64,000 nucleotides of DNA, from contig WPIO01000016.1 of assembly GCA_009760855.2 (NCBI GenBank), positions 4,919,001 through 4,983,000 of the forward strand, written 5' to 3'. Position 1 is the first letter of the stretch; each line of letters starts with the position of its first letter. Positions 3,401 to 59,738 of the stretch are shown here, piece after piece. A program made the translations under genes and the position numbers. The notes beneath the pieces were generated by a model, which saw only the letters and a program-made list of their open reading frames with translations, was not told the origin of the DNA and searched no databases. The DNA is from Cristatella mucedo. Lineage: Eukaryota; Bryozoa; Phylactolaemata; Cristatellidae.

Positions 3401-6400
3401 CTAGCTTTTCAACACCGGAGGTTGCCGGGTCAGGGAGTAAGTTCGAGACCCTGCAGAAGGCAGTCCTGTGTTGCCAGCTACCAGCAGATGATAGCCGGTA
3501 AGGCTCTTTGGCCATTGCAAACAAATGACGTTGCTAAATTAGCTACCCTTTACGCTTTGTTCAGCCCTGGGAGGCTTTAGCCCAGGGCTAAGATGCTTAT
3601 ACTTCACCGCCCAGGTCCCAGGTTTGAATCCAGCAGGCAAAACTTTACTGCTCCTGCAAGTACTAAAATTCCTCCTGCTGCTAAAATTCCTCCGTGGTTA
3701 TAATAATCAACAAGACTGCTGAGCCTGCTGACCTTTCCACTCTTGGCCTCTGGGCATTAGCTTAGGGGTTACTTACTTGAACTGCATGACCCAGGTCGTG
3801 AGCTAGAGTGATGAAGCAGGCAATTCTGCATTGCCCACTGTAAATGAGAGCGCCTGCTGCTAAGGCTCTTCTGCCGGTATAAGTCAATCAAGTTGTTGAA
3901 TCAGCCACCTGTTTAACCTTTTTCTTTTTTTATTCCACATCTTAGCCTTGGGACAAGGCAGTCGCACTTCGAGACCCAGGTCGCAGTCCTGCAAATCCTT
4001 ACATAGCCCATTGCACGCGGAACAGATAGCCACTAATGGCAAATATGCTGCTACATAATTGGGGCTGCTTAAATCAGCAGACTTTTACGTAATAATAATA
4101 ATAATATTGCACTTGATAAAGCGCCCTCAGAGAACTTAATCTCTTTCTAGGCGCTTTACATTTGCTGCAAAGTGATACGCAATAGAATAGTAAGTAAAAT
4201 CATGCTTGAAAAACAAACAAAATGAATAACATGGTTAGGGGTTACATGCACTGGGTCAGCACTTTTTCGTTAGAAAATTATCGGCCGTATTTTAGTTTTC
4301 ATGAAGCACAGTCTTCAATGAAGTTGGGCTGCCCCTGAGAGTTGCAAGATGCCCATAGCAACATGCAGCCCACATGCCCATAGCAACACAGTACTGGCAG
4401 CCAGTTGCCCATGGCACTGATGCATCGGCCTCGAAAACTGCCGCAAATGTAGCATCTCACGCTCCGTCCGACGAGCTACAGCTAGCTTCATGCAAAAAGT
4501 GCGAATGAAGCATCACGACCAGCAGCACACAGAGGCGAATGCGAGATGTGCAAGAGCTTTATGTCACGACGACGGTCAACAAATGGCCTTACCGGACGAA
4601 GTGGTACGAACACTGGTGTGCCGCCAGCCACGGTGGTCATCGGCGCGTAGCAGTCAAAAAATGGTTCAATGATGATCACCTGATCAAAGTCGCAGGGTCA
4701 CATGTGGGTAGGCACGCAAGCATATCTGCTGCAGCATACAGGAAAAGTGTCATCGCACTAGATGCTAGCAGCTCACGCCCTGCAGTTGTGGCATGCAAAT
4801 GTCATCACCTGCTCTGTGGCACGAAACAAAGGTCACACTAAGATGGAACAATCAACGTTTTGGCCAGCTGCAAAATTCAATTGGGGCTGCCCTAGACATA
4901 CATAGACAGATCATTCCTCATCTCTTTCCAAAGACTCTTGCGGTAACAGCGCTGCCATATTTGGACCGGTATACCGCCATCACTTTGCCCCGTTAGAGTG
5001 CAGCTGTGGGGCTAGCATTATCGCTGACACTCTAAGCTTCAAAGGCAGTCATTTTGCAATACCCCAATAGGTATTTTGCACTGCTAACTGTTCTTGAATC
5101 CCAAATCAATCAAGTGAAACCAGTAGATTAATAACACTATCTCCTGGTTTGTGCCAGAAAAATGGGCCAAATCTTAAGAACTGTAGCTCTACTCTCTGTC
5201 TCCTAGCGACGTCCTACCCTACCCCCAAGGTAGCAGCTACTTGCTGAACAGCCAGGTCACTTTCAGCCAAGGGAAATTGCTACGGGCATCATGGGCTGCC
5301 CACAATCGCTTTTAGCTGACAGCGAGCTTCCGGGACAGACTCCGATCGCTGTGTTTCCCCCAAGGCAGCTTCTTTCGTTCTCTGAGTACCATAACCCAAA
5401 ATGCATCGGTGACAAAAGACAGCACGGCTGCTTCTCTCCACTGCCCTTGTGCCACCCTTGTGCCAAAGAGTCTTTCACAATGCCTGTGTACTTATTGATC
5501 TTGCTGTCTGCAGCCTTATCCGTGGTGTCAAACGGGATGATGGTGACATCTGCAGGGAACGAACCCCATCAGGCCTCACTATCGGACGCGCAGCATGACC
5601 AACAACGAGAGAGCCAGCGCAGAGCGAGCCGCAGATGTCCTCTCCGGCACCTGCTGTGCATTGCACAGCGGCGTCAGCGAGCAAGCAGCCGCACTCTGCA
5701 TGCTGCTGCCAAACGCTTTCTTATGGTCCGGGAATGTGGCAAACGGCTAGCAATCGTCCTACTGGCTGTGTATAGCAGAACTGAAAGCAGCTTCCGGTCA
5801 GGAACGACTGCTCGAGGCAGCCGTCGAGCAGTCAGGCAGGAAGCCCTTCGGCTGCTGGGCTGCAAGCCAGCCAGCTGACCGATGGTGGCCAATCGGCTTC
5901 GAGGGCAAGCCACCAGGTAGCACTTCTGCGGCATCAGCAAAAAAGCAGTCGTGTCTGAAGTTGCCGGTTAGCAAGGCCCCGCCCAGCTTGTGGTGGCGGA
6001 TGGTCCAGCCATCCTTACGTGACACCGGCATGTCGGAAAGTGAAGGCATGCATTGAGGCACCGTGGCTATGAGACGACAGTTTGGATCAACAGCTCTAGT
6101 GGTCTGCATCCCCGGTGGCATTCCCCGGCGAGGCGCCTCGTACGGGGAGGCAGCCGGCGACCACAGCAGCGGCAGCTGCTTTGCAAACTGAACCGTCGGC
6201 TGCTGCCTTCTCCTCACATACCATAACTTCCATCCGGTTTCCTCGCAGCAGCTAATAATAATAAAAATTATTCACTTGATAAAGCGCCCTCAGAGAACTT
6301 AATCTCTTTCTAGGCGCTTTACATTTGCTGCAAAGTGATATGCAATAGAATGGTAACTAAAATCATGCTTGAAAAACAAACAAAATGAATAACATGGTTA

Positions 6401-8520
6401 ATAATAATAATATTGCACTTGATAAAGCGCCCTCAGAGAACTCAATCTCTTTCTAGGCGCTTTACATTTGCTGCAAAGTTATATGCAATTGAATAGTAAG
6501 TAAAATCATACTTGAAAAACAAACAAAATGAATAATATGGTTAGGGGTGACATGCACAGGGTCAGCATGCAAATGTGGTTAGTGGCAGCATGCACAGTGT
6601 CAGCACGCATAAGCACATCAAGGACGAATCACAGGGACCCACTAAATGCTGTCCTACATAGGTGTGTTTTTAAGTTTCTTTTAAATGTGGTCAGGTCAGG
6701 GGATGTTCTGACGCAGGTCGGGAGGGAGTTCCAGGCTTTGGGAGCATACGAGCTGAATGCACGGTCTCCAAAGGATTTAAGGTTTGCACGAGGTATTTCC
6801 AGACTGTTGGATTCCGAAAAGCGGGTGGTACGATGCTTGGCCTGATGGGGTAGTATATCTGAAAGATAGGCTGGAGCCATAGAATGAAGAGACCTAAAAG
6901 TGAGCGACAAAACCTTGAAGTCAATCCGTTGCTTGACTGGTAGCCAGTGCAGGTCGGCGAGAAGTGGAGTAATGTGGCAACTGCGACGCTCACGACAGAC
7001 AAGCCTAGCTGCAGAGTTTTGCACCAGCTGCAATCGCCTGATCGCACATGCTGGTAGGCCAGTAAGCAGTGAGTTGCAGAAGTCGAGACGGGATGTCACG
7101 AATGCATGGACCAACTTAGACGTGGTATCTTTATCTAAACAAGCCCGAATTTTAGCAATGTTATGAAGCTAAAAATAGGCGAATTTGACTGTGGAGCTGA
7201 TATGGTCGTCTAACGAGAGGTCGCTTTGGTTCGTATCCTCTCAAAGCCTGGAACTCACTCCCGACTTGCAGCAGAACATCCCCTGACTTAACCACATTTA
7301 AAAAGAATTGAAAACACGCCTATTTAGGACAGCATTTAGTAGGTCACTGTGATTTGTCCTTCGTGTGCTTATGCATGCTGACACTGTGCATGCTGCCACT
7401 AACCACACTTGCACGCTGACCCTATGCATGTCACCCCTAACCATGTTATTCATGTTGTTTATCAAGCATGATATTACTCACCATTCAATCGCATTCCCTT
7501 TGCAGCAAATGTAAAGCACCGAGAAAGAGATTGACTTCTATAAGGGGTTTTTATCAAGTGCATTATTATTATTATTATTATTATTACTATGCGGGTGAAT
7601 TACAACTTAACTGCAGTAAGTTAATTTTGATTACAGGCATGTGACTGGTACAGGCAATATTAAACATAAGCAATATTGGCATGGCAACCATAGGCAGATG
7701 ATCAACGATCAAGATATGTCTCCGAGATACGGCTGCGAGAAGAACTAAAGAAATACCTTCCAAACCGGTGCCGAGCCAACACACATACACACTGCAAACA
7801 GACTACACTGGCACATTCCTAGCAGGTTCGTACGAGCCGACTCTCGAGAGCCTGTAAGCTCAGAGCAAACAGCTGCACTCGTGGTGTGCAGACGAGCCCA
7901 CGCCCAGGCTGAGGTTAACTCACCTCATCACCGGGATTGACGAACCCCTGGAAGATGCAAAACAGTGACTCGTAGGCGCCGCAGGTTACGAGGAAGTTCT
8001 TCAGTGGGTCCAGCTGGCGGCCGAACAGCGGCCCGAACGTGTTAGCCATGGCGTTAACCATCCGCGGATGTCCCTGGAAGAGAACGGCGGCTCGTGAGCA
8101 GCCGCGCTCATGACAGCAGAGGTGCTGACAGCACCGGAACTGATCGTTCAACGAGGCCTGAACTATGCAGCAGCAGCAGCAGCATCGGCAGGAGCCAGAG
8201 CCGGCAGAGCGGCGGAACAGTGTGAGCAGAGAGAGCCAGAGAGAGAGAGAGTGCACAGAGCGTGCACGAGTGCACAGAGCGAGCACAGCACAGAGCGAGC
8301 ACAGAGCGTGCACAGAGCGTGTACAGAGCATGAACGAGTGCGAGCTGCATGACAGCGAGCACAACTTACGAAGCCACGCGTGTACTGCTGCATCAGCGGG
8401 TTGGTGCTGCCGGCAACAGCTGTCAGTGCTTCGGTGACATGGTGAGGCGGCAGGTAGTCGGGGAAGCCCTGGCCCAGGTTCACGGCACTGTTCAGACGGG
8501 CGAGTTCGGTGAACGTGACC
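349..8520 (-). CDS. KYAT: Kynurenine aminotransferase / cysteine-S-conjugate beta-lyase (partial, 5 exons)
   Basis: This is a PLP-dependent fold-type I aminotransferase that converts kynurenine to kynurenic acid and can also act as a cysteine conjugate beta-lyase. Five minus-strand exons (8370-8520, 7924-8073, 4593-4679, 1019-1144, 349-469) join in phase into about 178 residues that follow the KYAT1/KYAT3 order: [76 protein letters not shown] and ISDEVYEW. The PLP-contacting Asn of NNPLG and the Asp and Tyr of SDEVY are present. The PLP lysine (SAGKTF region) and the C-terminus lie beyond position 1. QYTRGFGHP resembles KYAT3, while the FFDCY segment resembles KYAT1, so I do not choose between paralogues. 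No stop or frameshift is seen, so the gene looks functional. Confidence 0.95.
470..1018 (-). other. KYAT intron
   Basis: Intron between the NNPLGK and VYTRDEL exons. It contains an AT-rich stretch near 720-830 with repeated ttagtaatgatttagta motifs. No other gene or recognisable transposon is seen. Confidence 0.8.
1019..1144 (-). CDS. KYAT: KYAT exon: [10 protein letters not shown] to NNPLGK
   Basis: A 126-bp phase 0-0 exon read after acceptor CACCAG. It encodes [20 protein letters not shown], then [10 protein letters not shown] and NTPNNPLGK. The NNPLG asparagine is the conserved PLP/substrate contact. The first dozen residues sit in the variable loop between the small and large domains. 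The donor is AAG followed by GTTTGT, unusual because position +3 is T. Confidence 0.93.
1310..1470. repeat. Degenerate TG-rich microsatellite
   Basis: Alternating GTGTGTGC/CATG-rich run inside a KYAT intron. It produces artefactual His/Ala-rich open frames on the minus strand. The following 1480-1850 is purine-rich (GAGA-type) low-complexity DNA. Confidence 0.85.
1850..3390. other. KYAT intron interior, no gene seen
   Basis: Between the low-complexity tract and the SINE-B cluster I see no exon, no clear transposon and no long conserved frame. The short open frames have no recognisable content. Confidence 0.6.
3395..4082 (+). repeat. Cluster of four degenerate SINE-B copies
   Basis: Four diverged copies of a tRNA-derived SINE follow each other at about 3395-3545, 3552-3730, 3745-3915 and 3940-4082. 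Each shows a remnant of the head (ggt...ggtttgaatcc or gttcgagaccc), then a ggcaa/ggcagtcct block, then a tail of the type gatagccggtaaggctctt and an AAATCAGCAG-like end. Better-preserved relatives are at 22857-23150 and 57492-57675. Boundaries are approximate. Confidence 0.7.
4087..4261 (-). mobile_element. LINE-A 3' end fragment
   Basis: Reading on the minus strand, this is the 3' UTR, terminal hairpin (AAAGCGCC...GGCGCTTT) and ATT-type tail of the LINE-A family, truncated just upstream of the CACCCCTAACC motif. It abuts the SINE-B cluster in a KYAT intron. Confidence 0.9.
4593..4679 (-). CDS. KYAT: KYAT exon: [11 protein letters not shown] to FVPLRP
   Basis: An 87-bp exon encoding 29 residues: [20 protein letters not shown] then TPVFVPLRP. 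The acceptor is TGATCAG and the donor is CCG followed by GTAAGG; it is phase 0 at both ends. The FFDCY block is the conserved substrate-side segment of KYAT enzymes. Confidence 0.95.
5263..6217. other. Unassigned open-frame cluster in a KYAT intron
   Basis: Several overlapping open frames occupy both strands here. On plus, a 195-codon frame contains a hydrophobic stretch ([15 protein letters not shown]) at 5480-5525. On minus, 5798-6217 is open for 139 codons, and a stretch at 5440-5545 reads [18 protein letters not shown] after a CCCTGCAG acceptor-like sequence. I recognise no family. It could be an old insertion, an unrecognised nested gene or chance in CpG-rich DNA. Confidence 0.2.
6251..6399 (-). 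mobile_element. Extra LINE-A 3' tail (doubled-tail subfamily)
   Basis: A complete LINE-A 3' tail (ATT repeat, hairpin, conserved 3' UTR) ends at an AACCATG motif and is joined through a second TAA/TTA microsatellite to the tail of the next element at 6400. The identical arrangement is at 59562-59709, so this is a unit of one subfamily rather than an independent insertion. Confidence 0.85.
6400..7227 (-). mobile_element. LINE-A, 5'-truncated copy (C-terminal ORF2 and 3' UTR)
   Basis: Minus-strand CR1/L2-like LINE. An uninterrupted 161-codon frame (6629-7114) carries the family C-terminal domain: [46 protein letters not shown], and ends in FRTAFSGSL-type residues. It differs from the copy at 59710-61137 at only scattered positions over about 800 bp. 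It stops abruptly at 7227, where an oppositely oriented copy begins. Confidence 0.93.
7228..7590 (+). mobile_element. LINE-A 3' fragment, head-to-head with the preceding copy
   Basis: Plus-strand LINE-A starting inside the [14 protein letters not shown] codons (ttcgtat...caaagcctggaact) and running through the 3' UTR, a partly decayed hairpin and a tail of about eight ATT units. Its 5' end touches the 5' end of the minus copy at 6400-7227, giving an inverted pair with tails outward. Confidence 0.92.
7924..8073 (-). CDS. KYAT: KYAT exon: GHPRMVNAM to NPGDE
   Basis: A 150-bp, 50-codon exon, phase 0 at both ends (acceptor TTCCAG, donor GTGAGT). It encodes [38 protein letters not shown] and [12 protein letters not shown]. 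This is the aminotransferase segment with the NxLVTxGxYxSLF motif, matching KYAT1/3 over its whole length without gaps. Confidence 0.95.
8370..8520 (-). CDS. KYAT: KYAT exon: [10 protein letters not shown] to QYTRGF
   Basis: A 151-bp exon with acceptor CATGCAG and donor GTAAGT. After one nucleotide completing the previous codon it reads [37 protein letters not shown] and QQYTRGF. The leading G fits the last base of a Trp codon, matching the conserved ..N-x-W-[VI]-E-F.. start of KYAT proteins. So at least one more coding exon, ending in TG, is expected upstream. Confidence 0.94.
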
Positions 8521-13112: not shown

Positions 13113-13157
13113 GCATTTCCGAGCCGGCCCTTTTTTGCTTCAAGTACTTTCCGCATT

Positions 13158-13240
13158 TAAAAATAATAATATAATCCATTTCTGTAGCGCCCGCCTAGAA
13201 TCTAATCTCTTTCAAGGCACCTTAAATATTCTTTATTTGT
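13158..13240 (-). repeat. Decayed LINE-A/SINE-A type tail
   Basis: aataataatataatccatt followed by gtagcgcccgcctagaat and aatctctttcaaggcacc resembles, on the minus strand, the common LINE-A/SINE-A terminal hairpin. It is too decayed to say which. Confidence 0.55.
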
Positions 13241-13472
13241 CATGCTAGTTACATAAAATAATAAAATTACCTTACGATCATTGGAAAATAGTACCATATC
13301 ATATCATACCGTATCATATTGAAGCCACATATTTCGCTAACATTTCTTGAAAATTTGACGGTTTTAAAGCTTTGTAGAGCCAGTATATAAATAAATATAT
13401 AATATATATATATACATATCTTTTTCTTTATTTACTTGTACAGAGCACGTGCTTTATGATTATTCACAATTG

Positions 13473-13612
13473 AAGCTGGTTTGGTCTAGCGGTTAAGGTG
13501 CTCGCCCCGACCTAGGTCTGACTTGAGGTCGTGGGCTGGAGCCCCGAGGCATATGTGAAGCGCCTGAATAGAGATTATGTTCTCTTGGGACGCTATATAA
13601 ATGAATTATATT
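13473..13612 (+). mobile_element. SINE-A copy 1
   Basis: tRNA-like head (ggtctagcggttaaggtg A-box region, gtcgtgggctggagcccc B-box region) followed by a tail hairpin (aagcgcc...gggacgcta) and an AATGAATTAT end. The tail is colinear with the LINE-A 3' end. A second copy follows immediately. Confidence 0.88.
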
Positions 13613-13613
13613 T

Positions 13614-13756
13614 TGCCGAGCTGGTTTGGTCTAGCGGTTAAGGTGCTCGCCCCGATCAAGGTCTGACTGAGGTCGTGGGCTCGAGCCCCGAGGCATATGA
13701 GAAGCACCTGAATAGAGATTAAGTTCTCTTGGGGCGCTATATAAATGAATTATATA
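13614..13756 (+). mobile_element. SINE-A copy 2, in tandem
   Basis: Near-identical second copy: gagctggtttggtctagcgg, gaggtcgtgggctcgagcc, and tail gaagcacctgaatagagatt. Head-to-tail tandem SINE copies suggest a dimeric insertion or insertion into the A/T-rich tail of the first. Confidence 0.88.
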
Positions 13757-15079
13757 TTTTATTTGACTTCTTTCACATCTGCGGGCACTTAACACTGACA
13801 ACATAACAAAGCGGTTATTCCAGATATTGACTCTCGCGAGAGCAGCCATTTCAAGTCTCGTGCCGCTCCGGTAACCACTCACGTTGCGGTCGCCGCCGGA
13901 TGTCTATAGTCAAATTCGTTTGAATGATACTAATTGATCTTTTTGTTGGAATGAACAACAATGCCAGAGAAGATTGCGGTGTGAGTTCCAATTGCTGCTC
14001 TCTTATAAAGCTTGCGGCTTGGCGATCAAGCAGGTCAGCACAAGATGCTGTCTTAGTCCGGCAGTCATGAACGCTTAGCTTTTTCTGCCGTCAGCTCAAT
14101 CAATGTCATAATAGTAATCGCGCGTATGCGCAGCTCATGTGACATTGAAGGAAAATGAAAGCAACATTTCAGCTAAATTAGCTGCAAACGTGAAACTGAG
14201 CATTTCTCTCCGGCATTTTCACTCCACGGCCATTCGTAAGGTTCGCTCATGTAGGTCGCCGACTACCTGGCGATCCTAACCGGTTCGCGCGACCCTCACT
14301 GGTTCAGGTGGTTGTCTATACTCGCGAAAGCGTATGCGAATGGGACGCTCTTAGCGCACCAAACGTTAAGCGGCGAAATCCAACCAGCCTCGTGTCCTCT
14401 CGGGCAGCCCAGAAGAAACGACGTCTGCAAGTTGCGACAAGCGTGCATGCGCAGGGCAACGACTCGTCGGCAGTCGCCAAAAAGAGTCATACGCTTGTCT
14501 CAAAGATTAAGCCATGAGTGTCTAAGTACATACCTCGACACGGTGAAACCTCGAATTGCTCATCATATCAGTCACGATTCATTAGAACGCACAATCCTAC
14601 TTCTGCAAGCTGTGACAAGCGCGCATGCACAGGGCAACGACTCGTCGGCAGTCGCCAAAATAAAAGAGAATAGACAGGCGGATTGACAGAGAAAGAGTCG
14701 GCCGCCGCCTGGGTCTGGCTCTCTCCTTCCTGCGTGCCGGCGAGGTATGAAATCGTGCATCGACGACGGGGTGACGTAGATCAACATCGCGCCGCTCATG
14801 TGCCAGATCATCGCGGCTATTTCGCAAGCGGTCTCTCCAGTTCAAAGTCACCGGTCTCTCTCGAAGTTCGTAAACAAGGGCTATAGCACAACAGCACCGA
14901 ACCGGAAGGCGGAAATAGCAGGTCAGCGGCCACTTCAGGAGGCTGGCATCCCGCGAAGAGCCTTGCATCTTTCGCTTTGACCTCGTTTTTTGACCTCGTT
15001 CCATTCCAGACAAAACGGAGACGCATTGCCGCGTACTCCCACGTTGGCAGAGTCTTCACATTACGGCAGTACATTCACG
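13757..15079. other. Intergenic stretch with a 60-bp direct duplication
   Basis: No gene recognised. A block at about 14418-14481 recurs at about 14599-14660 (shared core gggcaacgactcgtcggcag, with several substitutions on the left side). Small open frames on both strands have no recognisable domain. Confidence 0.6.
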
Positions 15080-22856: not shown

Positions 22857-23030
22857 TTGGCCGTGATGGCACGCCAGGTAAAGCAGTAGCTTTTCACAAC
22901 CTCGGTCCCAAGGTCGTGGGCTCGAATCCTGAGGCGGCCGATCTTTTATTGCCCCTGCAAGTGGTGGTGATAGCCATAAAGGTTCTTCTGTCGCTATATA
23001 AAAGTGGCTGTCAAATCAGCAGGTATTATT
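22857..23030 (+). mobile_element. SINE-B copy
   Basis: tRNA-like head (gccgtgatggcacgccagg, gtcgtgggctcgaatcctg), then ccctgcaagtggtggtgat and a tail hairpin agccataaaggtt. It ends in aaatcagcaggtatt. Confidence 0.88.
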
Positions 23031-23032
23031 TG

Positions 23033-23150
23033 ATGAGCCGTGATGGCACACTAGCTAAGGCGGTTGCTTTTCATGCTCTCGGTCCCGAGATCGCGGGTTC
23101 GAATCCTGCAGCAGGCAGTTCTCATTCACTATGACAGTTAGCTGCCATCG
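23033..23150 (+). mobile_element. SINE-B copy with canonical B box
   Basis: Starts gagccgtgatggcacact, has gatcgcgggttcgaatcctg (B box GGTTCGAATCC), and a shortened, diverged tail. It lies directly behind the copy at 22857. Confidence 0.88.
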
Positions 23151-23659: not shown

Positions 23660-24490
23660 TCGAAGCTGCACACACTACTCAGCGACAGGCAATGAGTAGC
23701 ATCAGGCTGCCAGAACGCTAAGGAGTGGCCCACAATCACCCTGCTAGATGTCACTTCAATCTGCCGACACCGAGAACACACAGCAATCGCCCGCTCCCAC
23801 AGCTCCGACACTCTGCTCGCTGACTGCGTTACGCCGACTCATGCCAAGGGTGACTGCCTTTGTGGATGGCACCCTCAGGCTCGAGCAGGGCGGCTCACTG
23901 TCGCCGAGCGATGCGCCACGTGATTACACAGGAGACCAGCGGCGCCTCAAAGTGCAACGGCACAGCAGGATCCCAACCGCAGTTGCCAGCCTGTTCCAAC
24001 CAAGGTCCAGCCCACGATGATGATCCCGGAAAGGCACCCTTAAAGAGCTTCGGATATGCGACGGCAGTTATCACGATTGCTGCTCGTCCGGACAAAATAG
24101 ACTGCACAGCAGCTCACTCAGCTGCCGGCCAAGTCTCCTGAAAACACGGCAAGCACAGGCGCCGATGATGCAAAAGAAAGCCTCTGCTTGACGCTGCAAT
24201 GACAGCTACAGCTGAAGTAGCGGCAGACACGTGCCCGAGAGGCGTGGAAAAGTGAAGGACTTCAGTTGCAAAAGTTTTGCACGAGCGACTGCAACTACTG
24301 GTGGTCGGCATCAACTATCGCCTCCTCTACCGACATAAGCCAAAGCCACAGCAGGTGAAAGGCAAAAGTATCACGGCAACATGGCCACGATGCTCGGGGG
24401 GGGGGGTGAGCTGCCACGGCAGCATGGCTTGCAGCATTTTAGAGGCTGCCGTTTTTTTGCCGGGCCCCACTTGTCGATGGTAATGAAAAA
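23660..24490. other. No gene recognised
   Basis: Lies between the tentative MUS81 end and a LINE-A copy. Open frames on both strands are of moderate length without recognisable content. A 9-G run is near 24398. Confidence 0.45.
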
Positions 24491-24499
24491 AATATTGAT

Positions 24500-26760
24500 A
24501 TAATAATAACCCACTTGATAAAGCGCCTTCAGAGAATTCAATCTCTTTCTAGGCGCTTGACATCTGCTGCAAAGAAAACATGATCAAATGGTGAGTGGTA
24601 TCATGCTTGATAAGCAACATGAATAACATAGTTAGGGGTGACATGCACAGGGTCGGCATGCAAGTGTGGTCAGTGGCAGCATGCGCACAGTGTCAGCACA
24701 CATAAGAACATGAAGGACGAATCAATGGGACCCACTGAATGCTATGATAAATAGGTGCGTTTTTAGTTTCTTTTTAAATGTGGTCAAGTCAGGGGATGTC
24801 GTGACACAAGTCCGGACTGAGTTCTAAGCTTCGGGAGCATACGAACTAAATGCACGGTCTCCAAAGGATTTAAGGTTTGTAGGAGGTATTTCTAGACTGT
24901 TGGATTCCGAAAAGCGGGTGGTACGATGCTTGGCTTGGTGGGGAGTAGATCTGAGAGATAGGCTGGAGCCAAAGAATGAAGTGACCTAAAAGTGAGTGAC
25001 AAAACCTTGAAGTCAATCTGTTACTTGACTGGTAGCCACTGCAGGTCGGCGAGAAGCGGTGTCATGTGGCAACTGCAAGTGACGCTCACGACAGACAAGC
25101 CTAGCTCCAGAATTTGCACCAGCTGTAAGTTCTAATTGCACAAGCCGGTAGACCAGCAAGCAGTGAGTTACAGAAGTCAAGACAGGATGTCACAAATGCA
25201 TGGACTAACTTAGATGTGTTAACCCTGTCTAAAACAGCCCAAATTTTAGCGATGTTATGTGGCTGAAAGTAGGCAGACTTGATGGTGGAGCTAATGAGGT
25301 CGCCTAAGGAAAGGTCACTCTGGAGCATGAAACCTAGATTTTGCGCCGTTACAACAGGAGATATGCTGGCAGAGCCCATTTTGAGGGTTAGCCGTTCCAA
25401 TTTAGATGTGTTAACCCTGTCTAAATCAGCCCAAATTTTAGCGATGTTATGTGGCTAAAAGTAGGCAGACTTGATGGTGGAGCTAATGAGGTCGCCTAAC
25501 GAAAGGTCACTCTGGAGCATGAAACCTAGATTTTGCGCCGTTACAACAGGAGATATGCTGGCAGAGCCCATTTTGAGGGTTAGCCGTTCCAATTTCCGAA
25601 TCACACTTAGTTTGCCCGTAACTAGTAAGTTGATTTGATCATAGTTCAATTTGAGAAAATTTGCTGTCATCCATGTGCAGATGTCATCTGTACATGCAGC
25701 AAGGAACTGAAGAGAATTCGACGTGCTCGAGGGCTTGGAGGGATCAAAGCTAGGTACAATTTAGTGTCATCCGTATTGAAGTGAAAGTGTAGATTGTGCT
25801 TGGCAATCACATCGGCAAGAAGAAGGGTATAAACCATGAAAAGAACAGGACTAAGCACGGAGCCCTGAGGCATTCCATATTTCAGAGATTCCTCGAATGA
25901 CCATTGTATATTCACATCAATATTCTGGAGTCTCTCACTGAGGTAGGACCTGAACCATTGCAATGCAGTGCCACTAATGCCCAGGCGAGATGAGAGGCAC
26001 TCTAAAAGGCCTTATAGATCGATAGTATCAAATGCTGCCGAAAGATCAAGCAAAACAAGCAGAGATACTCTACCAATCTCTGCATTCCTCAGTAGGTCGT
26101 TGTACACACGAAGTAATGTTGACTCTGTGGAGTGATTAGCTCTAAAACCAGACTGGAACTTAAAAGCAAGATTCGAAGTTTCAATATGAGTTCAGCAGGT
26201 CTGCCACGACTCGTTCCAGTGTCTTTGATGGGAATGGTAGAAAAAAGATTGGGCGGTAAAAGTTCAAGTTTTCCTCTAGTATTGCTTTTTTGAGTAGTGG
26301 CCTTACTACAGCATTTTTGATAGGTGCTGGGACATTACCTGAGGCTAATGACATATTAATGATGCTGGTTATGCACGGCAGCAGCAGACCAATGCAACGT
26401 AGAAGCAGGACAGTGGGAATAGGGTCCAAAAAACTAGTTGTCATCTTGATTGGGATATGAACTTCCGGCCGAGGTCACTAGCTACCTCCTTGAATGAAAA
26501 CATTGAGGTGCTGCAAGGTATTGAGGGACAGCATTCAAGGGGGCGGTGCTGCCATCGCAGGGATGGACTCCCTGATATTGTCTATCTTTTGGACAAAGAA
26601 GCTAGAGAAGCGACCAGCTAAATTATCACATGGATTATTAGGTAAGGAGCTAACCTGGGAGCCGTTTAGGAGATGGTTGATCGCCGACATAGCATTTTTG
26701 GATTGTGCGCCTGAGATTCACAGTGTTTTTAAAGAAGCTAGACTTGGCATTTGCTAGGAT
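24500..26760 (-). mobile_element. LINE-A, longest copy in the window (about 2.2 kb), decayed
   Basis: On the minus strand it runs from a pre-RT segment (FFKNTVNLRRTIQKC, FFVQKIDNIRESIPAMA), through RT ([30 protein letters not shown]) and the C-terminal domain, to the 3' tail. The catalytic YADD appears as NTDD, and several frameshifts and stops are present. It contains a 192-bp tandem duplication (about 25211-25595). Its 5' end abuts an oppositely oriented copy. Confidence 0.93.
25211..25595. repeat. 192-bp tandem duplication inside LINE-A
   Basis: The segment beginning gatgtgttaaccctgtcta at 25213 repeats at 25405. The two copies are nearly identical (for example aaaacag versus aaatcag, aagg versus aacg). 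192 is a multiple of three, so the RT thumb/connection codons (LTLKMGSASISPVVTAQNLG) are duplicated in frame. Confidence 0.93.
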
Positions 26761-27413
26761 CGATTTGTACCGGAATGTGCAATCAGGCGATTACAGCTGG
26801 TGCAAAACTCCGCAGCGAGGCTTGTCTGTCGTGAGTGGCACTCGCAGTTGCCACATCACACCGCTTCTCGCCGACCTGCACTTGCTACCAGTGATGCAAC
26901 GGATCGACTTCAAGGTTTATCACTCACTTTTAGATCCCTTTATTCTTTGGCTCCATCTTATCTCTCAGATCTACTCCCCCACCAGGCCCAGCATCGTACC
27001 ACTCGCTTTTCGGAATCCAACAGTATCCCAATACCTCGTACAAACCTCAAATCCTTTGGAGACCGTGCATTTAGTTCGCATGCTCCTAAAGCCTGGGACT
27101 CACTCCGACTTGCGTCAGAACATCCCCTGACTTGATCACATTTAAAAAGAACTTGAAAACACGCCTAGTTAGGACAGCATTTAGTAGGTCCCTGTGATTT
27201 GTCCTTCGTGTGCTGACACTGTGCATGCTGCCACTAACCATATTTGCATGTTTACCCTGTGCATGTCACCCCTAACCATGTTATTCATGTTGTTTATCAA
27301 GCATGATATTACTCACCATTCAATCGTGTCTCCCTTTGCAGCACATGTAAAGCGCCTAGAAAGAGATTGAGTACTCTGAGGGCACTTTATCAAGTGCATT
27401 ATTATTATTATTA
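26761..27413 (+). mobile_element. LINE-A 3' fragment, head-to-head with 24500-26760
   Basis: Plus-strand copy starting near the [18 protein letters not shown] codons (gcgattacagctggtgcaaa) and running to a hairpin and ATT tail at 27400-27413. Its C-terminal codons are frameshifted. Confidence 0.93.
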
Positions 27414-33700: not shown

Positions 33701-36700
33701 CTCCTGCTGCTCACTATCTCAACTGTCCCCCTGAGTCAGCCATGCTTCTCACTTTCTCTTTGTTGCGTGAGAGGAAGTTTGTTGGCAACCAAATGCGTAC
33801 CGAAAGGCTCTGAGGGCCCAACAGGAAACTCTCCCGAGTAACGTCAGCATAGTATTCGAGGCTTCGTAGATTTACAGACGAATGCAAATTGCATTATGTT
33901 TCACATACATGCCAGCAGCGCGTGTTCGCTTTTGGGTAACCAATAACTGCTTTCACATGCTACACATAGCAATAGTGTGCCTGCCATCGTAGTAAACCCT
34001 CTTTATCCCAGAACGATTATATACAGCCACAGCAGCCACACTGCAAGAAATATTTTGCACCTCGCTGTATGTAAAACAGTCTAATCTCTCGATACTACTC
34101 TCCCTTCGACCGTTTAAAAAATACTAGCTGATTTAACAGCCTCTTTTTGTATAGCGACGGAAGAAGAGCCTTCGTACCTAGCTGAATCTGCTGAACTGCT
34201 GCATCAGTTTCAGCCTCTTCGCGCCCTCAGGTCCTGTGTGGACAATAAATTAGCTGTCCCATTCCTCCGCTTAAAGACAGTTGGCGACAGAAGCTTTCGC
34301 TCTGCAGGTCCTAGACTGTGGAACTCGCTTCCACAATTCTTACGCAACGACAACTACTCTCCAAATGCCGACTATGGCTCATTCTTTTCAGCAGTCCTGA
34401 GCTGCTACTTCCATGCTACTCACTACCTCAACTGCTCTCCTGACTCTGCTATGCTTCCCACTTTCTCTTTGTTGCGTGAGACGAAGTCTGTTGGCTACCG
34501 AATGCTTGTACCGAAAGCCTCTTAGGCTGTGACTGTGATACACAAAACTCTCCTGCGTAACACCCACGTGGTCTTTATGACTTTGTGGAGTTACAGACGG
34601 AGATACATTACATTGACGACTATCACCACCGCTTGTAGTGTCGATAAAGGATCGTGCACCGCAGGATTCGAACCCACGATCTCGGGCCGAGGTCGTGAAA
34701 AGCAACCGCCTTACCCAGTGAGCCATTACGGCTCATTGTTTCCATACATATGGAGAGGTTGTACTTACAATGAAGTAGTTATGGGGTGTACCATGGTCTG
34801 ATGTGACAGGCACATTTTATTGCTTTCCTCATAGCTCATATCAGGAGAGAGTTAATTGCCCCAGAGTTAGCCAAGAGCATCCTCTTGGGCGAGTTTAGTA
34901 GCATTACTTACACGCTTGGTACAAAAAAGGCTATCATGACACTATTTACGTCGGTAGATTACTGAGTTTTCGAGCATGTATACCATCAACCTGTTTAGTT
35001 CTACGCACTCCTAAGTGGCAAAATGTCAACACTCGTGTCCTCCCAGTACCTATACTTCAGGATCGGCCCCATGGAGATACAAAGTATCGGATGAGAAACA
35101 TTGCAGCGACTAGGTGCAAGCACGTGCTGACACTGCTCGGTCAACAAGGTTCAAGCAATTATGAGATCGAAAAATACATTTTCGAATTCACCATGCACTA
35201 TAATATATCAACAGATCCAATGGTACTGGTTGGCTGCAGCAGAATCTGGTTGACTGGGCAGGATTGATACCAGGGGTGACCGACTCATTAGGATGGTTCG
35301 AGTCTAGACATCCAAATCAAGCCAGCCAATCGAGTAACTGAGCAGCCTCAGTATCCACTCTGCTGCACTCATCTCATACGAGTGCTCAGCCAAGGGATGA
35401 CTGCAAAAAGGCACCACTTCGTTGATTAATGAACCAGATTAACTAACCGCCTTTTTGTTGCCCAGTTTCCAAACCCACACTGCTGTTCCCAGGCATGATG
35501 TCACAAGATCAGAATGCTAAGGCCGGCAGGCTCACGGACACGAGCAAAGCAAAGGCAGGAGGCCAGCTGGGCTAAAGTCGGCCGAGGCTACGCTCACGGG
35601 CTCACAAACGCTCACGGGCTCACAAATGCTCACGGGCTCACAAACGCTCACGGGCTCACAAACGCTCACGCAAACGCTCACGGGCTCACAAACGCTCACG
35701 GGCTCACAAACGCTCACGGGCTCACAAACGCTCACGGGCTCACAAACGCTCACGGGCTCACAAACGCTCACGGGCTCACAAACGCTCACGGGCTCACAAA
35801 CGCTCACGGGCTCACAAACGCTCACGGGCTCACAAACGCTCACGGGCTCACAAATGTGCGCAGGCGAGGCTAAGGGCGATGGCACCCATGCCAGGCATGC
35901 AGTGCAACCAAGGGGGAGGAACCATTGAAAGAATGTGCTACTAGTACGGTTATGGCACAGATCGAGGGATTCTCAATGTGCCATGTAGTGCCCAAGCTCC
36001 GACGAGCACATAAACGAGAGCCCGTGCTGCGGCAGCAGAGACCAACGAGGCGTGTACACATTGGCTGCTATCGTGCACAACATGGCAAATCGACGACAGA
36101 CGTTGCAAACACAGAACCCGACGAAATAGCAGCAAGCCAAACTGAACCAAGAGTTGTGCACGGTTTGGCAGCACACCCGCAGTAAGGAGTTGGCAGCGTG
36201 GGATGGGTAAACGAGCCCCTGCAAGGAAGCCTCCTCGGCTGCTGCCGAGGCAAGCACACATGCCACCCCCCCCCCCCCGTAGATCGTCCAGAAACAGCTC
36301 CAAGCATGGCTCGTCTTACCGAGTAAAGGCTTTGCAAATGCCGGGTCATTATCGTCAGATATGCCACAGTTTCGTAAAGATCCTTGGTGCGCTTGACGTA
36401 GAACTCTTCGATTACCTGCCCAGACGAAGGAAGAAAGAGCCTGCAGCGAGCTGCTTGGCCGAGCACGGCTTCTTGGTGTGATACCTTGTAGTACAAGGTG
36501 TAGCTCCGAGAAGTACGCCTGCGCAGAAGCCCTCGGCAAGGCGCCTGGGCCACACTACCATACAAATGCTGCAGCCGCCTCGTGGACACGGCACGCAGCA
36601 ACCCAAGGTGCAAGACACGCCAAACGATGAGTAACACGAGCCCATTCACTACCTTCGCATCGTAATCGGTCTATGCACTGCTGCTGGGGTAGAGCTGCCC

Positions 36701-39700
36701 AGTATACCTGCGTGTTCATGATGGCTTGCTGCAGGACCTCCGGTTTGATGCGCTCGTGGCCGATGCTCCTCGGTTGTTCGATCAAGTAGATAGGTCGGCG
36801 TAGGCCACAGGCTTTCATACGGCGCTGCATCAATGTGGATAAAAATAAGAAGCTAGACAAGGCAAGTGTCAGCGCAACAGACGCCTTCTCCCGGAGCCTG
36901 GCAGGCACGAACTCGGCAAGCACAAAACTCGCTTTATCAAACGATCGGTGATTAGACAGAACGGTGGTGCACACGCTAGACATGCAAGGTAAGAGAGATG
37001 GGCTCAATCGTTTGCTGTTTCAGAAACAGCCGACAGCCGACTTCCCTCCTCCTCGTGTCCAACTAGAGCATCGAGCGATTAAGTGATGAGACAGTCGGGC
37101 TATTTTCAGATATCAAAAATAGCTTAATGTCTGACTGACACGCCACACAACAGGAACTGAACAACTACTAGAGCAGTAGGTTTTGCACGGTGGCCAGGTA
37201 AATAAGGCAGAGACAATGAGGATAATAACAAAAATAATACGTTTGTTATAATGCCCTCAGAAAAATCAATCTCGTTCTAGGTTTTTTATACTTGCTGATA
37301 GCATAGATAGAAGCATTCACGGCTTTCACTTGGGTTTCATTTGCCATAATGAAAGACCAGTCCTCCACGGTTCAGAGGGCAGACATGAACATGCTGGCCT
37401 TCCTCATTCTGACCACGGTGACTAGTAGTCGACGTGCCCGCTACAGCTGGTCCTCTCTTGCCTCACTGAATTGCCATCCCTGATCGGCCGCAATCAGACG
37501 TGGACAAAGAGTGAGACAAGAAGGCACCATCCCAGCGAGTCAAGCACTGGCTAGGGCTCCTAAATTTAGCTTACTAGTGCTGCACCCAAGCCGTGTGGAA
37601 TTTTCCTAGGGGCCCTGCCTTGACCTTGGCTGGCCCTAACTGCAGCAGCTAAGAGACGTGCTGAGTACCAAGATGCTCCTTCGGATTAGTCCACGACTGT
37701 ATCTGGCCTCACTCCCGTCCCCCTTCTTCCTGGCATGCCTATGTGAGGTGCAGTGCAGAAAAAGCACAATGTCTGCAGATCAAACTTCGTGATCACAAGA
37801 GTCCGCAAAGAGTAGACTAGAACAATCAGCCGTTGTAGTCACCGTGGCTGTTAGACGTTTTGAAAGGCATTACCACAGTAAGAAGATGTGCAATCACAGC
37901 AGCAACATATGCGGACTTGCATATGCCATATTAAATCGTAATTTAGTAGTAATTAAGTAATTGACATAATTAGGTCGAACAAAAGTCGTAATAATAAAAA
38001 TTGTGCACAGTATAATTTGAGTTATATCTTCTGATTCAAGTCGTTAGCTATGCCACAAAGACCCTCAAATTCAGGCTTGATTAGGCAAGGATACTACATA
38101 CAAATTGGGGTCAATCCATTTGTAACACCCCCTTTCGACTTCCGTTAACTCACTGCTTTCTGGTCTACCGGCCTGTGCCATCAGGAGCTTACAGCTGGTG
38201 CAAAACTGTAGCTAGGTTTGTCAGTCGTTAACGTTGCAGTTGCCACATCACACCACTACTCGCAGACCTGCACTGGCTTTCAATCAAGCAGCCTGTCGAC
38301 TTCAAGGTTCTGTCACTTATTTGCATGTCCCTTCATTCTCTGGCTCCAGCCTGCCTATCAAAAATACTCCCCTGCCACCGCCAGGCCAAGCATCGAAACA
38401 CCAGCTGCTCTTACTCAAATCGTTTAGCTATACCTCGTACGAACCTCAAATCTTTGGAGACTTTGCCTTTAATTCGTATGCTCCCAAAGCCTGGAGCTCA
38501 CTGCCTACTGACGTCACGACATCCACTGACTTGGCCACATTTAAAAAAGAGCTGAAAGTGCACCTTTTTCTCACAGCATTCACCGGTCCGTGTAAATTGT
38601 CTACGGTGTGCTTATGTGTTCTGAAGCGGTGTATGCTATCCCTAACAAATTGACATGCTTCTTTTTAAGCTTAAGTAAGAGTGGCCAAAAAGAGATGCAG
38701 ATACCTTGTGATGCTATAAAAATATTATTATTCCTATTATGACTAATTAAGGAATCATATCAGCCGATTAGTGATAAGATGCACAATGTCAGCATGCCTT
38801 AAGCACAATAGGAAAATGCATATGGACAGAGCAGCTGCTGGAACAAGAGTGATACTAGAACCCTTTTAAATGTGGTCAAGTCATGGTAACTCGTGACGTC
38901 GGCCGGTGGCAAGTTCTAGGCTTTGGAAGCATAGGTACTGAAGCCGTGGTCAGCAAGGATTTGGAGTTGGTCTGTGGCACACTAAGGAGAGCAAGTTACA
39001 GAAGTCTAGACAGGATATCATGAACGCATCAACTAACTTTGATTAATTACCCTTATCTAAACCTAACCAACTTGCTTCAAAATAATGAAGCAGAAAGTAG
39101 GCAGACATGGCTGATGAGCTAATGTAGTGAAAGATGATGCGATCTAGTGAAAGGTAGTTTTGGACCAGGGCACCAGATTCCGCAAAAGCTACAGTGGAAA
39201 TGCTGGCCGAGCCTATGCTGAGGGCTAGGCTTCCCTAGACCTGTGTGTCATATGCATTACAAGAAAAGCCTCGAGTGTGCATGGCGATGCCATCGACAAA
39301 ATGAGGGTACATGGTGAAAAGTAGTAGACCTAGAAGGAATCGTTGGGGTACCAAATTCCTTAATGGTTCGCCGGATAAAGAGCAAGCACAGACCGACCAC
39401 AACAGCTGCCAGCACTGCAATCATGAAGCGATGTAGCTAACCAGGTGCAGCAGGTCACTGGTTCCACTCTCTAGAAACCCAGCTCAAACCGGCTCGAGTG
39501 CCTAGAAGTGTAGAAATAGAGGCACACCTGCAGTCAGACCCTAACATGGTGACGTCAATCAAAAGAAGATTTAGCACCCATCAGCTACAAACAGCCACAA
39601 TGAAACTGCCGGCGAGCTAAATCGGCCTGTTTATGACTGATGATAATTATTCGTTGTTCTAAACTAACTTGAAGGGGCTAATCTAACATAAGTCTAATTT

Positions 39701-42700
39701 GATGAGCCTTGTGGACAAAACCTGGCCACAGAATTATATGACTAAGCTTGCATTTCGAGCAAAACAGCGTCTGAGCACTGGCTGAATCAGCTACAAGATA
39801 AAAGCAGCACAAAAGACAAGTGATTAGTTGAGGCATCAAACCTTCTGCTCTTTGTAGCGTCCGTCGATTATGCTTCCAGAGAGATCGTCGAGCCGCTTCC
39901 GCTCGATCACATAATCCAGCACGATTTCCTGCGGCTGTGCTGCTTCCAGAGTTGCACTCCCTGCAGTGAGGCGACGTGCAGATAGCCCTCGGCTACCAAG
40001 GCCACATGCTTAGCAACAACACAAATGCGACCCCCACTCTAAGACCCCGGTCTTCCTCTACACAACAGAGAGCTCCTATCGACATACTGCCGGGTATACA
40101 AGGGAGAGGTCGGATCGCTGATTGACCTCGACCAAGCCAGTACACTGTCACGAGCTTTTCTATCGGACAGGCTGATCTCCAGTCATACCTGTTATGCCTG
40201 GCAGCTTGATCTGAGGGGCCAAGGTTTTCTCTCGAGCGAGCCAAACGAAATCTCCTACACTTAGCAGACGCACTTCGAAGGCCACACCATTCCTCGCCAG
40301 CTCGGGCAGCAGCGCCTGCTTAGAGCTTCCAGCCCTGTAATGGTGGCAATGAGCAATGTGCAGCCAGTTGGCATCGGTACAGCGCTGCTACTTAGAATGC
40401 CCTTATACCCATCCTACCGCCGACCCAGAAGCAGAATCGGCACTGGAGCAGCAGCAGCAGTTGTGGTGGCAGCAGGAGTAACAGCATGGACGCAGTAGCA
40501 GCAGCGTCAGTGGCAGGGCAGCAGCAGTAGCAGCAGCATTGGCTCAGCAGCAGCAATTCTCGGCAGCTTTTGATACCATCGATCACAAAGTTCTTCCAGA
40601 GCGCCTCTCATCTCGCCTGGGCATCACTGGCACTGCTCTGCAGTGGTCCAGGTCCTATCTCAGTGGGATACACCAGAGTATTGATGTGAATGGACAAAGA
40701 TCATCTGAGGTACCTCTGAAATATGGCGTACCTCAGGGCTCCGTGCTAAGTCCGGTTCTTTTCACGGTTTAAACTCTCCCTCTTGCTGATGTGATTGCCA
40801 AGCACAATCTAGGCTTTCACTTCTAAGCAGATGACACTCAATTGTACCTTTGCTTTGATCCGTCCCAGCCTTCCAGCACCTCGAATTCTCTCAACTCACT
40901 TGCTGCATGTATTGATGACATCTGCACATGGATGGCAGCAAATTTTCTAAAATTAAATGACGATAGAACTAACTTGCTAGTTATGGGCAAACCCAGTGTT
41001 ACTCAAAAATTGGAAAGGCTGAAACTCAAAATTGGCTCTGCCAGCATATCACCACTTGAATCAGCTCGAAATCTAGGTGTCATATTCCAAAGCAACCTCT
41101 CGTTAGACGACCATATCAGCTCCATAGTCAAATCTGCCTATTTTCAGCTTCATAACATTGCTAAACATCGGGCTTGTTTAGATAAGGATACCACATCTAA
41201 GTTGGTCCATGCATTCGTGACATCCCGTCTCGACTTCTGCAACTCACTGCTCGCTGGCCTACCGGCATGTGCGATCAAGCGATTGCAGCTGGTGCAAAAC
41301 TCCGCAGCTAGGCTTGTCTGTCGTGAGCTTCGCAGTTGCCACATTACTGCACTTCTCGCTGACCTGCACTGGCTACCAGTCAAGCAACGGATTGACTTCA
41401 AGGTTTTGTCGCTCGCTTTTAGGTCACTTCATTCCTTGGCGCCAGCCTATCTGTCAGATATACTCCCCCAACAGGCCAAGCATCGTACCACCATCTTTTA
41501 GGTATCTACCAGTCTACAAATACCCGGTACAAACCTCAAATCCTTTGGAGACCGTGCATTTAGTTCGTATGCTCCCAAAGCCTGGAACTCACTCCCGACC
41601 TGCATCAGAACATCCCCAGACCTGACCACATTTAAAAAGAATTTAAAAACACACCTATGTAGGACAGCATTTAGTGGGTCCCTGTGATTCGTCCTTGATA
41701 TGCTTATTCGTGCTGACACTGTGCATGCTGCCACTAACCACATTTGCATGCTGACCCTATGCATGTCACCCCTAACCACGTTATTCATTTTGTTTGTTTG
41801 TCAAGCATAATTTTACTCATCATTCAATTGCATTTCCCTTTGCAGCAAATGTAAAGCGCCTAGAGAGAGATTAAGTTCTCGGAGGGCGCTTTATCAAGTG
41901 CATTATTATTATTATTATTACTATTAGCAAGGCATCAGCAGCGCAGTGCCGAGTCATCTGCATGCCTAGTCACGCGTAACCTGATCGGCAACCCTGTTGC
42001 AAAGTGCTTGAGAAGCAGGCGGCAGCTATAAAAGTACAGCAACATCTCCGGCAATGCTTGACAAACCCGTAGTGCTCTCGATTGTCCACACAGAGGACGA
42101 TCTCGAATTCCCCAGGTCGAAGTGTGAACAGTGGAGTTGCAACGGCAGGCGTCGGAGCAGTAGTCTGTTGCTGGGACATGGCATATGCTATGACGCCAGC
42201 ATTGGCATCACTGTCGCTGCCCACAGTGAAATCGGATACTGCACTGCTGATGCTTACAGCCACTGAGCTCTGATAGCGGGCAGCAGAAGCCACTTTCGGC
42301 TGCTTTGAACGAGCCGGGCCGACCTTTTTACCCGTCGGCCTGCTGCTGCCAATCTGAGAGTCGGCCACTGTGATCCCGTCAGTTATTGCAGAAGGACAAA
42401 CCACAGGACGGCTGTGATGTGCAGTAGGTGCAGCGGCTGCAGATAGCTCACAGTGATCAGGGATGCCTGTGTAAACTGGCTCAGTCGAAACATCAGGCAC
42501 GTCCTTTTCGCACAGGTAAGCGTGCACCTCGTCATTACTCGGAGTTTTCCTGAAATAATGAGCCATGCATGCAGCAGCTGCTGAGAGACATCGGAAATTT
42601 AGACCGACAAGTCATTCGGCGATAATGATATAATATAAATAGATGTGTATGGCACCCTTGGAAAGCTGAATCACTCTTTAGACAGTGGCTCGTCGATGTA

Positions 42701-52485: not shown

Positions 52486-52627
52486 CAAGGCTGGTATGGT
52501 CCAGCGGTTAAGGTGCTCGCCCCGACAAAGGCCTGGCCGAGGTCGTGGGATCTAGCCCTGATGCATACGTGAAGCGCCTGAATAGAGACTAGGTTCTCTT
52601 AGGGAGCTATGCAAATGAATTATATAA
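52486..52627 (+). mobile_element. SINE-A copy
   Basis: ggctggtatggtccagcggt, gaggtcgtgggatctagcc, tail gaagcgcctgaatagagact and gcaaatgaattatataa. Confidence 0.88.
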
Positions 52628-53189
52628 GGCCGACTTTCACTCAAGGCAGAAGCAATCAACTGCCAACAAATGCTACACATGAAGACAAAATGTGACAAAG
52701 CAAAGATAACCGAATTAGTAGCGGATAATACACTGTTACTGTGGGAGACGGGTGCCTGTAACAGATACCAGAGGTTGAGCTGATAGCGCCAAATGATATC
52801 CAATTACAAAGCCAGCCAAGCTCCGACTACAATATGTAGTTGAATCGTTAGCCCGACTTCATACATGTGGCAACACACTCAAAAGGGAAAACTTTGCCAC
52901 TGGAGCTGAACCCAAGGCCTCTAAAGCCAGAGATCATGAGTTCGGGGTCAGGCCAGGGTCACACCTAACACCCATTTTGATAGAAGTAGTCCAGTCCAGC
53001 TTTATGCCCAAAGCACTAGACCCAATGACCAACAAAGACTGCCCCCCAAAAGTTTCTACACACCAGCTACGAGCACACTATTTAACTCTAAATTAAAATT
53101 AAATTAAAATACGATTTAGATTGGATCTAATTCTGTAGCAGTTTTTTATGCAGGAAAGCTAAGAAATGTAATTTTTAAATGGAAATTAT
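52628..53189. other. Nothing recognised
   Basis: No exon or element identified. AT-rich near 53085-53190. Confidence 0.45.
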
Positions 53190-53332
53190 TTGGTAAATAA
53201 ATAAATAAAAAATTCGTTTGTATAGCGCCGTACGAGAACTTAATCTCCATTCAGGCGCTTCATATATGCCACGGGGCTCGAGCCCAGGACTCGGCTGGGG
53301 CGAGCACCTTAACCACTGGGCCAAACAGGTAC
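53190..53332 (-). mobile_element. SINE-A copy
   Basis: Minus-strand: tail complement tatagcgccgtacgagaact, ctccattcaggcgcttcat, head complement gggctcgagcccagg and gcgagcaccttaaccactgg. It borders the Tc1-like relic. Confidence 0.87.
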
Positions 53333-53339
53333 AATCGAT

Positions 53340-57491: not shown

Positions 57492-57675
57492 ATATTGGTG
57501 AGTCGTAATGGCATACTAGGTAAGGCGGTTGCTTTTCACGACCTCGGACCCGAGGTCGTGGGTTCGAATCCTTTGGTGGGCGATCCTTTATCGCTACCGC
57601 AAGCGGTGGTGATAGCCGTAAAGGCTCTTCTGTCGCTATACAAAAAGAGGCTGCTAAATCAGCTAGGATTAATTA
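57492..57675 (+). mobile_element. SINE-B, best-preserved copy
   Basis: Head gagtcgtaatggcatactag and gaggtcgtgggttcgaatcc (canonical B box), body ccgcaagcggtggtgatag, tail hairpin agccgtaaaggct with an outer atagc...gctat pairing, and an end in aaatcagctagg. Confidence 0.92.
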
Positions 57676-59460: not shown

Positions 59461-59561
59461 CAAATTATTTTTAATTAGCCCTACAATCCAACTATGACAG
59501 CAACATGAACATAACATGAATTCGGATACAGTATATACTACTGATGAACCAATCCAAACTT

Positions 59562-59707
59562 AATAATAATAATAATAATAATGTACTTGATAAAGCGCCC
59601 TCAGAGAACTTAATCTCTTTATAGGCGCTTTACATTTGCTGCAAAGAGAAATGCAATTAAATGGTTAGTAAAATCATGCTTGAAAAACAAACAAAATGAA
59701 TAACATG

Positions 59708-59709: not shown

Positions 59710-59738
<29 letters not shown>

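Follow-up and report, generated by a model that had tools for sequence, protein, structure and literature searches.

Positions 13473-13756 of a Cristatella mucedo window (the whole stretch of DNA that was analyzed, 64 kb in length) raise the question of whether the retroposon SINE-A ends in the same 3′ hairpin as LINE-A and, if so, whether the two elements are partners, as the initial annotation had proposed. The initial description simplified the interval, which holds two SINE-A copies arranged head to tail. Copy S1 (13475-13614, + strand), which is truncated by a few bases at the 5′ end, has its LINE-like tail at 13549-13612 with the hairpin at about 13554-13599. Copy S2 (13615-13765, +; tail 13693-13756) begins with GCCGAGCTGG directly at the A/T-rich end of S1. 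A Blast search of the SINE against the window revealed six copies, with 5′ ends near 13475+, 13615+, 52490+, 54101+, 53335-, and 46110-. The remaining four are S3 (52490-52633, +; tail 52563-52626), S4 (54101-54248, +; tail 54178-54241), S5 (53199-53335, -; tail 53206-53269), and S6 (45978-46110, -, 5′ end approximate; tail 45981-46044), the most diverged copy. The tail of S6 continues at about 45974-45985 (-) into TTTCTTTTTTAG, which resembles a splice acceptor and lies within the beginning of a long open frame (45469-46014, -); for this frame, no Pfam domain was found and the PDB search gave only a chance match (E 0.4).

SINE-A is short, non-coding, and present in high copy number, and has a variable A/T-rich 3′ end. 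Its length of about 140 nt is made up of a head of about 75 nt and a tail of about 60-65 nt, with no body between them. When the heads were scored against the familiar box A and box B consensus words, a box A word with 0-2 mismatches was present in all six window copies and a box B word with 1-2 mismatches followed 28-41 nt behind it in five; the best such word of S4 is situated elsewhere. In S1, the stretch from the box A-like word (0 mismatches) to the box B-like word (2 mismatches), which are 41 nt apart, covers 13482-13544 (+). ARAGORN reported 0 tRNA genes in the window, and Rfam gave no tRNA at E ≤ 10 in 13150-13800 or 13615-13705, and on the strength of the box A and box B words we call the head tRNA-like. 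A second family of tRNA-like SINEs occurs in the window at 22860-23020 (+), 23037-23108 (+), 57504-57663 (+), and 34620-34732 (-), with a box B word having 0 or 1 mismatch. Two of its copies end in a different tail (GATAGCCRTAAAGGYTCTTCTGTCGCTATAYAAAAG) with fold z-scores of only -1.88 and -0.99, and this family may depend on another LINE.

The 3′ parts of LINE-A are located at 63300-63836 (+; tail 63755-63821), 41400-41926 (+; tail 41845-41912), 26899-27413 (+; tail 27341-27408), 24488-25021 (-; tail 24500-24567), and 6399-6929 (-; tail 6404-6471), and a LINE-A open frame of 447 amino acids with a reverse transcriptase domain lies at 59955-61298 (-; tail 59731-59797). The hairpin described for these ends, AAAGCGCC-5-AGAGA-6-TCTCT-3-GGCGCTTT, is present as such at 63763-63802, and at 41853-41892 it is as described except for TCTCG instead of TCTCT. 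Two of the older tails of the same lineage are those at 45033-45095 (+), which has TATAC without an extra T and is nearer to the SINE end, and at 47419-47485 (-), which has decayed LINE frame pieces upstream and stands beside the LINE-A group in the tree described below. By resemblance, LINE-A is probably an L2-clade LINE. The LINE-A copies at 6253-6929 (-) and 59561-60255 (-) are 97-100% alike in the blocks they share, and in both a solo second LINE 3′ end of about 150 nt lies directly behind the main tail; these double ends may represent either a tail-on-tail tandem or a duplicated segment. Elsewhere in the window, a MUS81-like piece (36068-37019, -) matched a PDB entry at E 7.8e-6 over 35 residues, with the ERCC4 domain below its cut-off, and a piece of an aminotransferase class I/II (233-721, -) scored 21.2 bits at a cut-off of 19.7; both are probably host gene exons.

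To follow LINE-A beyond the window, the genome (572,011,866 bases in 688 contigs) was searched with the 447-aa frame, which gave at least 94 matches, scored out of 173864 candidates. Among the matches listed, open frames reach 1068 amino acids, and this longest frame (L073), the one long frame examined for its domains, contains the Pfam domains Exo_endo_phos and RVT_1, i.e., endonuclease and reverse transcriptase in one frame. The 3′ ends of twelve LINE-A copies were retrieved; the frame preceding the end measured 794-1068 amino acids in 11 of these copies and 418 amino acids in the other. All twelve carry the hairpin, in nearly identical tails that end in (ATT)n and not in poly(A), the exceptions being a single stem change in L066 and an altered hexaloop in L069. 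One further LINE-A copy, L078 (G000:C677:852290-853300), has a SINE-like internal loop, TGAATGG, in a tail that is otherwise of the LINE-A type, owing either to a chance mutation or to a template switch.

By iterated profile search, 38 tails of the kind shared by LINE-A and SINE-A were detected in the window (64 kb, E < 1e-3), of which six belong to SINE-A; three truncated tails (32206, 32264, and 38680) were omitted from alignments A1 and A3. A profile HMM trained exclusively on 29 LINE tails recovered all six SINE tails at E-values of 3.5e-11 to 2.9e-7, compared to a best E-value of 0.079 in 20 simulated windows and the reversed window, and thus bore out the annotated likeness in architecture; the test is slightly circular, since the older LINE tails came from the iterated search, whose later rounds took in SINE hits. 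The alignment of consensus sequences likewise went far beyond chance: the SINE consensus reached a local score of 70 with the consensus of the recent LINE tails (8 of 14 copies) and of 71 with that of the older ones (12 of 15 copies), the maxima of 2000 shuffles being 26 and 30, respectively. The similarity begins sharply at the GCA that adjoins the SINE head and extends through the A/T-rich end, and the shared stretch of about 60-70 nt is longer than initially stated. The head itself is unlike the LINE, its score against the LINE consensus lying below the upper 5% of its null distribution. Beyond the six copies, Blast matched LINE 3′ ends only with the last 60-70 bases of the SINE, apart from two exceptions, a 25-nt match of the head to the second SINE family and a 16-nt match of the tail end. 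A covariance model of the 29 LINE tails (R1) also found the six SINE tails with 34.6-53.1 bits; we dropped this as an argument for structure, because a sequence-only model (R2) found all six as well. Rfam, which includes a UnaL2 family, gave only chance matches and no LINE-tail family for three SINE and LINE-A tail stretches at E ≤ 10, and none for the whole window at the gathering score. Searches of viral_contigs with one exact pattern and of phages with the LINE protein gave no match.

The tails of SINE-A and LINE-A have in common a lower stem, an internal loop, an AGAGA/UCUCU upper stem, and a hexaloop. The inner pairing, annotated as kept to some extent in all six SINE-A copies, is retained in 27 of 30 pair cells. 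The outer stem can be extended to 11 pairs with one position unpaired, which is A·A in all six SINE copies, non-standard in 14 of the 15 older LINE tails, and paired in all 14 recent ones. Across 35 aligned tails (34 distinct), standard pairs accounted for 82.9% of the pair cells (95% in recent LINE, 73% in older LINE, and 82% in SINE tails), compared to 40-53% when the partners were slid. RNAalifold predicted no structure for the pooled 35-tail alignment. Eleven tails were folded singly: the three recent LINE tails had fold z-scores of -5.07 to -5.95, the six SINE copies of -1.28 to -3.15, and the two older LINE copies were near background (-0.15 and -1.43). The corresponding values for consensus sequences were -5.56 for recent LINE, only -1.74 for older LINE, and -4.87 and -5.74 for two SINE consensus tails.

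Compensatory changes in the hairpin stems, whose absence the initial annotation had named as refuting its reading, were not demonstrated, as double changes were no commoner than in slid controls either in the 35 tails (34 distinct) or in a set of 149 distinct tails. In the 35-tail alignment, two-sided changes occurred in 8 pairs and 12 cells, compared to 5-10 pairs and 9-17 cells in slid versions. The covariation score of this alignment was 0.160 versus at most 0.102 for slid versions, and 9 of 500 shuffles, which ignore relatedness, were as high; we regard this as a modest point in favour. The larger set comprised 77 tails labelled LINE and 72 labelled SINE, these labels being rough in that the LINE-A copy L078 and the doubtful L074-L076 were counted as SINE by their loop. 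Double changes fell in 16 cells of the LINE tails (mean of shuffles 11.4, with 29 of 300 shuffles as high; slid 12-33), seven of which are accounted for by two CpG pairs, and in two cells of the SINE tails (shuffled 1.7; slid 2-8). When all 149 tails were pooled, 29 double-change cells were counted (shuffled 19.3, 2 of 300 as high; slid 19-49), an excess that is partly made up of differences between the groups. With respect to paired cells, 2 of 300 shuffles were as high for LINE, 0 of 300 for the pooled set, and 255 of 300 for SINE tails, again with shuffles that ignore relatedness. By the standard of the initial annotation, this outcome speaks largely against its reading, but we do not give it final weight, because the majority of the copies are in decay and the stems differ little from one family to the other.

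The consensus tails of SINE-A and LINE-A differ in 15 of 64 columns, and these differences are unevenly placed. None of the 29 columns of the core (stems and hexaloop) differs, compared to 15 of the other 35 (Fisher 4e-5); when all paired columns and the terminal loop are counted, 3 of 38 differ, compared to 12 of 26 others (7e-4). As the core columns were chosen after the structure had been seen, both p-values are indicative only. The upper hairpin is identical in 16 of 16 columns, whereas five of the eight columns of the internal loop differ, with TGAAT in the SINE in place of TAGAA in the LINE. In a survey of 134 tails from 72 loci (134 of 141 tails were kept), the TGAAT loop was found in SINEs only, namely in 65 tails recognized by a crude head test and in three more that by inspection are SINE copies with a shifted or cut head. 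The ends differ as well: runs of at least three ATT-type units were present in 2 of 62 SINE copies versus 12 of 12 LINE-A ends, and the usual end of the 62 SINE copies is AAATGAATTATAT followed by A/T-rich sequence, not poly(A), with AAATGAA repeated in three copies.

Tree building with the 35 tails placed all SINE copies in a single group (UFBoot 99). The split between SINE and recent LINE-A tails received a support of 76, with one older tail included on the LINE-A side, and the position of the SINE group among the older tails a support of only 51. Several comparisons place the SINE tails nearer to the older LINE tails: an older-LINE model outscored the recent-LINE model on five of the six SINE tails, and in the terminal columns the SINE differs from the older consensus at 2 of 15 and from the recent consensus at 5 of 16. 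Others favour the recent tails: in the first 46 columns, the SINE differs from the recent consensus at 7 and from the older one at 9, and with CpG columns excluded the nearest single tail of all six SINE copies is a recent LINE-A copy, perhaps because the older copies are more decayed. Taken together, the tail sequences suggest as likely, without proving it, that the SINE tail split from the LINE lineage before LINE-A acquired its own tail changes. Of the proposed partnership between SINE-A and LINE-A, the shared descent of the 3′ ends and the conserved core stand, but the 15 differing columns, the end repeats, and the tree do not fit a simple direct pairing. An older relative or an unsampled sister of LINE-A is just as plausible a partner.

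A genome search with SINE-A gave at least 41 matches (40 of 1882 candidates were scored), with up to 97% identity outside the window. A 39-nt pattern of the SINE tail, which carried the LINE-type CA before GCA with the aim of meeting a LINE, was found with ≤ 3 mismatches at 6641 places, the reversed control at 0. When the best 30 of the 6641 places were fetched, a SINE head adjoined the tail in all 30, although over only 13-19 nt in three of them. From 53 of 60 SINE loci, 62 SINE copies with both ends were obtained, a sample that favours young copies; their median identity to a typed consensus was 96.4% (range 69.7-99.3%), and 31 of them begin at one and the same base, with GCCGAGCTGG. Flanking words of at least 6 nt were common to both sides in 10 of the 62 copies (null mean 3.8, maximum 8 in 200 shuffles) and words of at least 5 nt in 22 (null mean 13.8, maximum 22), the set including the tandem pair of the window, which is the source of the longest word. 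The check for target-site duplications thus yielded only short words slightly above the null in the 62 copies, and the six window copies were no better than the null. At best, SINE-A has short target-site duplications.

We also searched the genome for a LINE with the loop and end of the SINE. A pattern combining LINE-type upstream bases with the SINE-type loop was found with ≤ 3 mismatches at 1249 places. Eight places were fetched among 100 listed of the 1249, and no clear partner was found in these eight. The candidates L074-L076 were rejected as a LINE with a SINE-type loop, because they are duplicates of one block, in which the tail is not adjoined by a LINE frame; a LINE-like piece of 33 amino acids is encoded on the strand of the tail some 1 kb upstream of it. 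L077, L078, and L080 combine a LINE frame with a LINE-type end, and L079 and L081 have LINE-like tails with no matched frame in the fetched stretch.

We consider it probable that SINE-A is a retroposon with a tRNA-like head, whose tail split early from an L2-like LINE lineage and is recognized through its hairpin. SINE-A would be non-autonomous, with a head that contains internal promoter words joined to a tail derived from the L2-like lineage that includes LINE-A. It might be transcribed by RNA polymerase III, and the tail of the RNA is predicted to form the lower stem, the internal loop, and the upper AGAGA/UCUCU stem with the hexaloop UUAAGU on top. This hairpin would be bound in trans by a protein that a LINE from the same lineage encodes, and target-primed reverse transcription by that protein would copy the RNA starting at its 3′ end. 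Among the LINEs at hand, the best helper candidate is LINE-A, in those copies whose open frames are long, and little-diverged copies are present in both families. We infer each of these steps, from transcription and binding to mobilization and the identity of the helper. The retention of the core while the rest of the tail changed fits the zebrafish model, in which the loop is read. In one variant, which we put forward tentatively and consider rather unlikely, the SINE and its helper LINE would be coupled via the hairpin core alone, the internal loop, the flanks, and the 3′ priming repeat being uncoupled. Under this variant, the SINE would initiate on its own AAATGAATTATAT end, although (ATT)n serves the helper LINE. 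If true, core-only coupling would separate hairpin binding from the choice of the priming repeat within one natural pair.

It is extremely improbable that two A/T-rich ends, each with a simple hairpin, came to resemble each other by chance or convergence: the only feature in favour of this view is the simple composition of the AGAGA/TCTCT stem, and it is refuted, at the level tested, by the E-values and shuffles and by the identity also of the loop and of non-paired bases. A tail captured once from an old LINE, which then drifted while the SINE was moved by a machinery that ignores the hairpin, e.g., a relaxed poly(A)-type LINE, would account for the divergence of tail and end and for the lack of clear compensatory changes. 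We consider this unlikely, as drift alone is not expected to leave the core unchanged while flanks and internal loop change, and as the SINE copies mostly have the non-poly(A) end described above. Another possibility, doubtful on balance but to be taken seriously, is that the helper is a separate, unsampled LINE family with a TGAAT...TTRGGG...AAATGAATTATAT tail, LINE-A being only a cousin. The separate grouping of the SINE tails, their internal loop, private to SINEs among the 134 tails, the rarity of ATT runs, and the AAATGAA repeats of some copies agree with it, as does the fact that the HAmo pair of carps shares tail and repeat almost exactly (PMC2653535). On the other hand, no such LINE occurs among the 134 tails from 72 loci, and the best three of the eight fetched pattern places turned out to be one duplicated block. 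This alternative overlaps with a hairpin-recognized SINE-A whose tail split early from the L2-like lineage, the difference being which LINE serves as the helper.

SINEs with LINE-type 3′ tails are known from eel, carp, salmon, and others (PMC3747384, PMC4176376, PMC2653535), and experiments with the eel elements are cited in two of these papers as strong support for mobilization in trans (PMC4176376, PMC3747384). SINE-A and LINE-A look like a new case of such a partnership, with a tail that is unusually diverged, the literature having been searched for the kind only. Like UnaSINE and UnaL2 of eel, the latter a stringent L2-type LINE, they are a SINE and a LINE with a common 3′ hairpin tail, but the loop of UnaL2 is given as GGAUA (PMC2653535), whereas that of SINE-A and LINE-A is UUAAGU. 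HAmo SINE and HAmo LINE2 of carps resemble them in that a tRNA-derived SINE of 150 bp carries an L2-type tail with a hairpin. However, only one base of about 42 differs between the carp tails, in contrast to 15 of 64 columns here, and the carp elements have a TAAATG repeat in common, whereas the end repeats of SINE-A and LINE-A differ; a GGAUA loop and a central region are further features of HAmo (PMC2653535), whereas SINE-A has the loop UUAAGU and no body.

The comparison with ZfL2-1 and ZfL2-2 of zebrafish concerns the LINEs' own tails and not that of a SINE. These tails contain an upper and a lower stem, as do those of LINE-A, and ZfL2-2 has one ORF with endonuclease and reverse transcriptase, as in the 1068-aa LINE-A frame (PMC4176376). 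In zebrafish, deletion or disruption of the stem-loop abolished retrotransposition, an exchange of the stem left activity (about half for ZfL2-1), and the loop decided which protein acts (PMC4176376). The present data add a clear SINE/LINE 3′-end relation in a 572-Mb genome where the SINE-tail pattern occurs at thousands of places and long frames persist in LINE copies, and leave the known model standing. As the tails are more diverged than those of the carp pair, their changed and kept columns map, in a natural setting, which parts the LINE enzyme may require.
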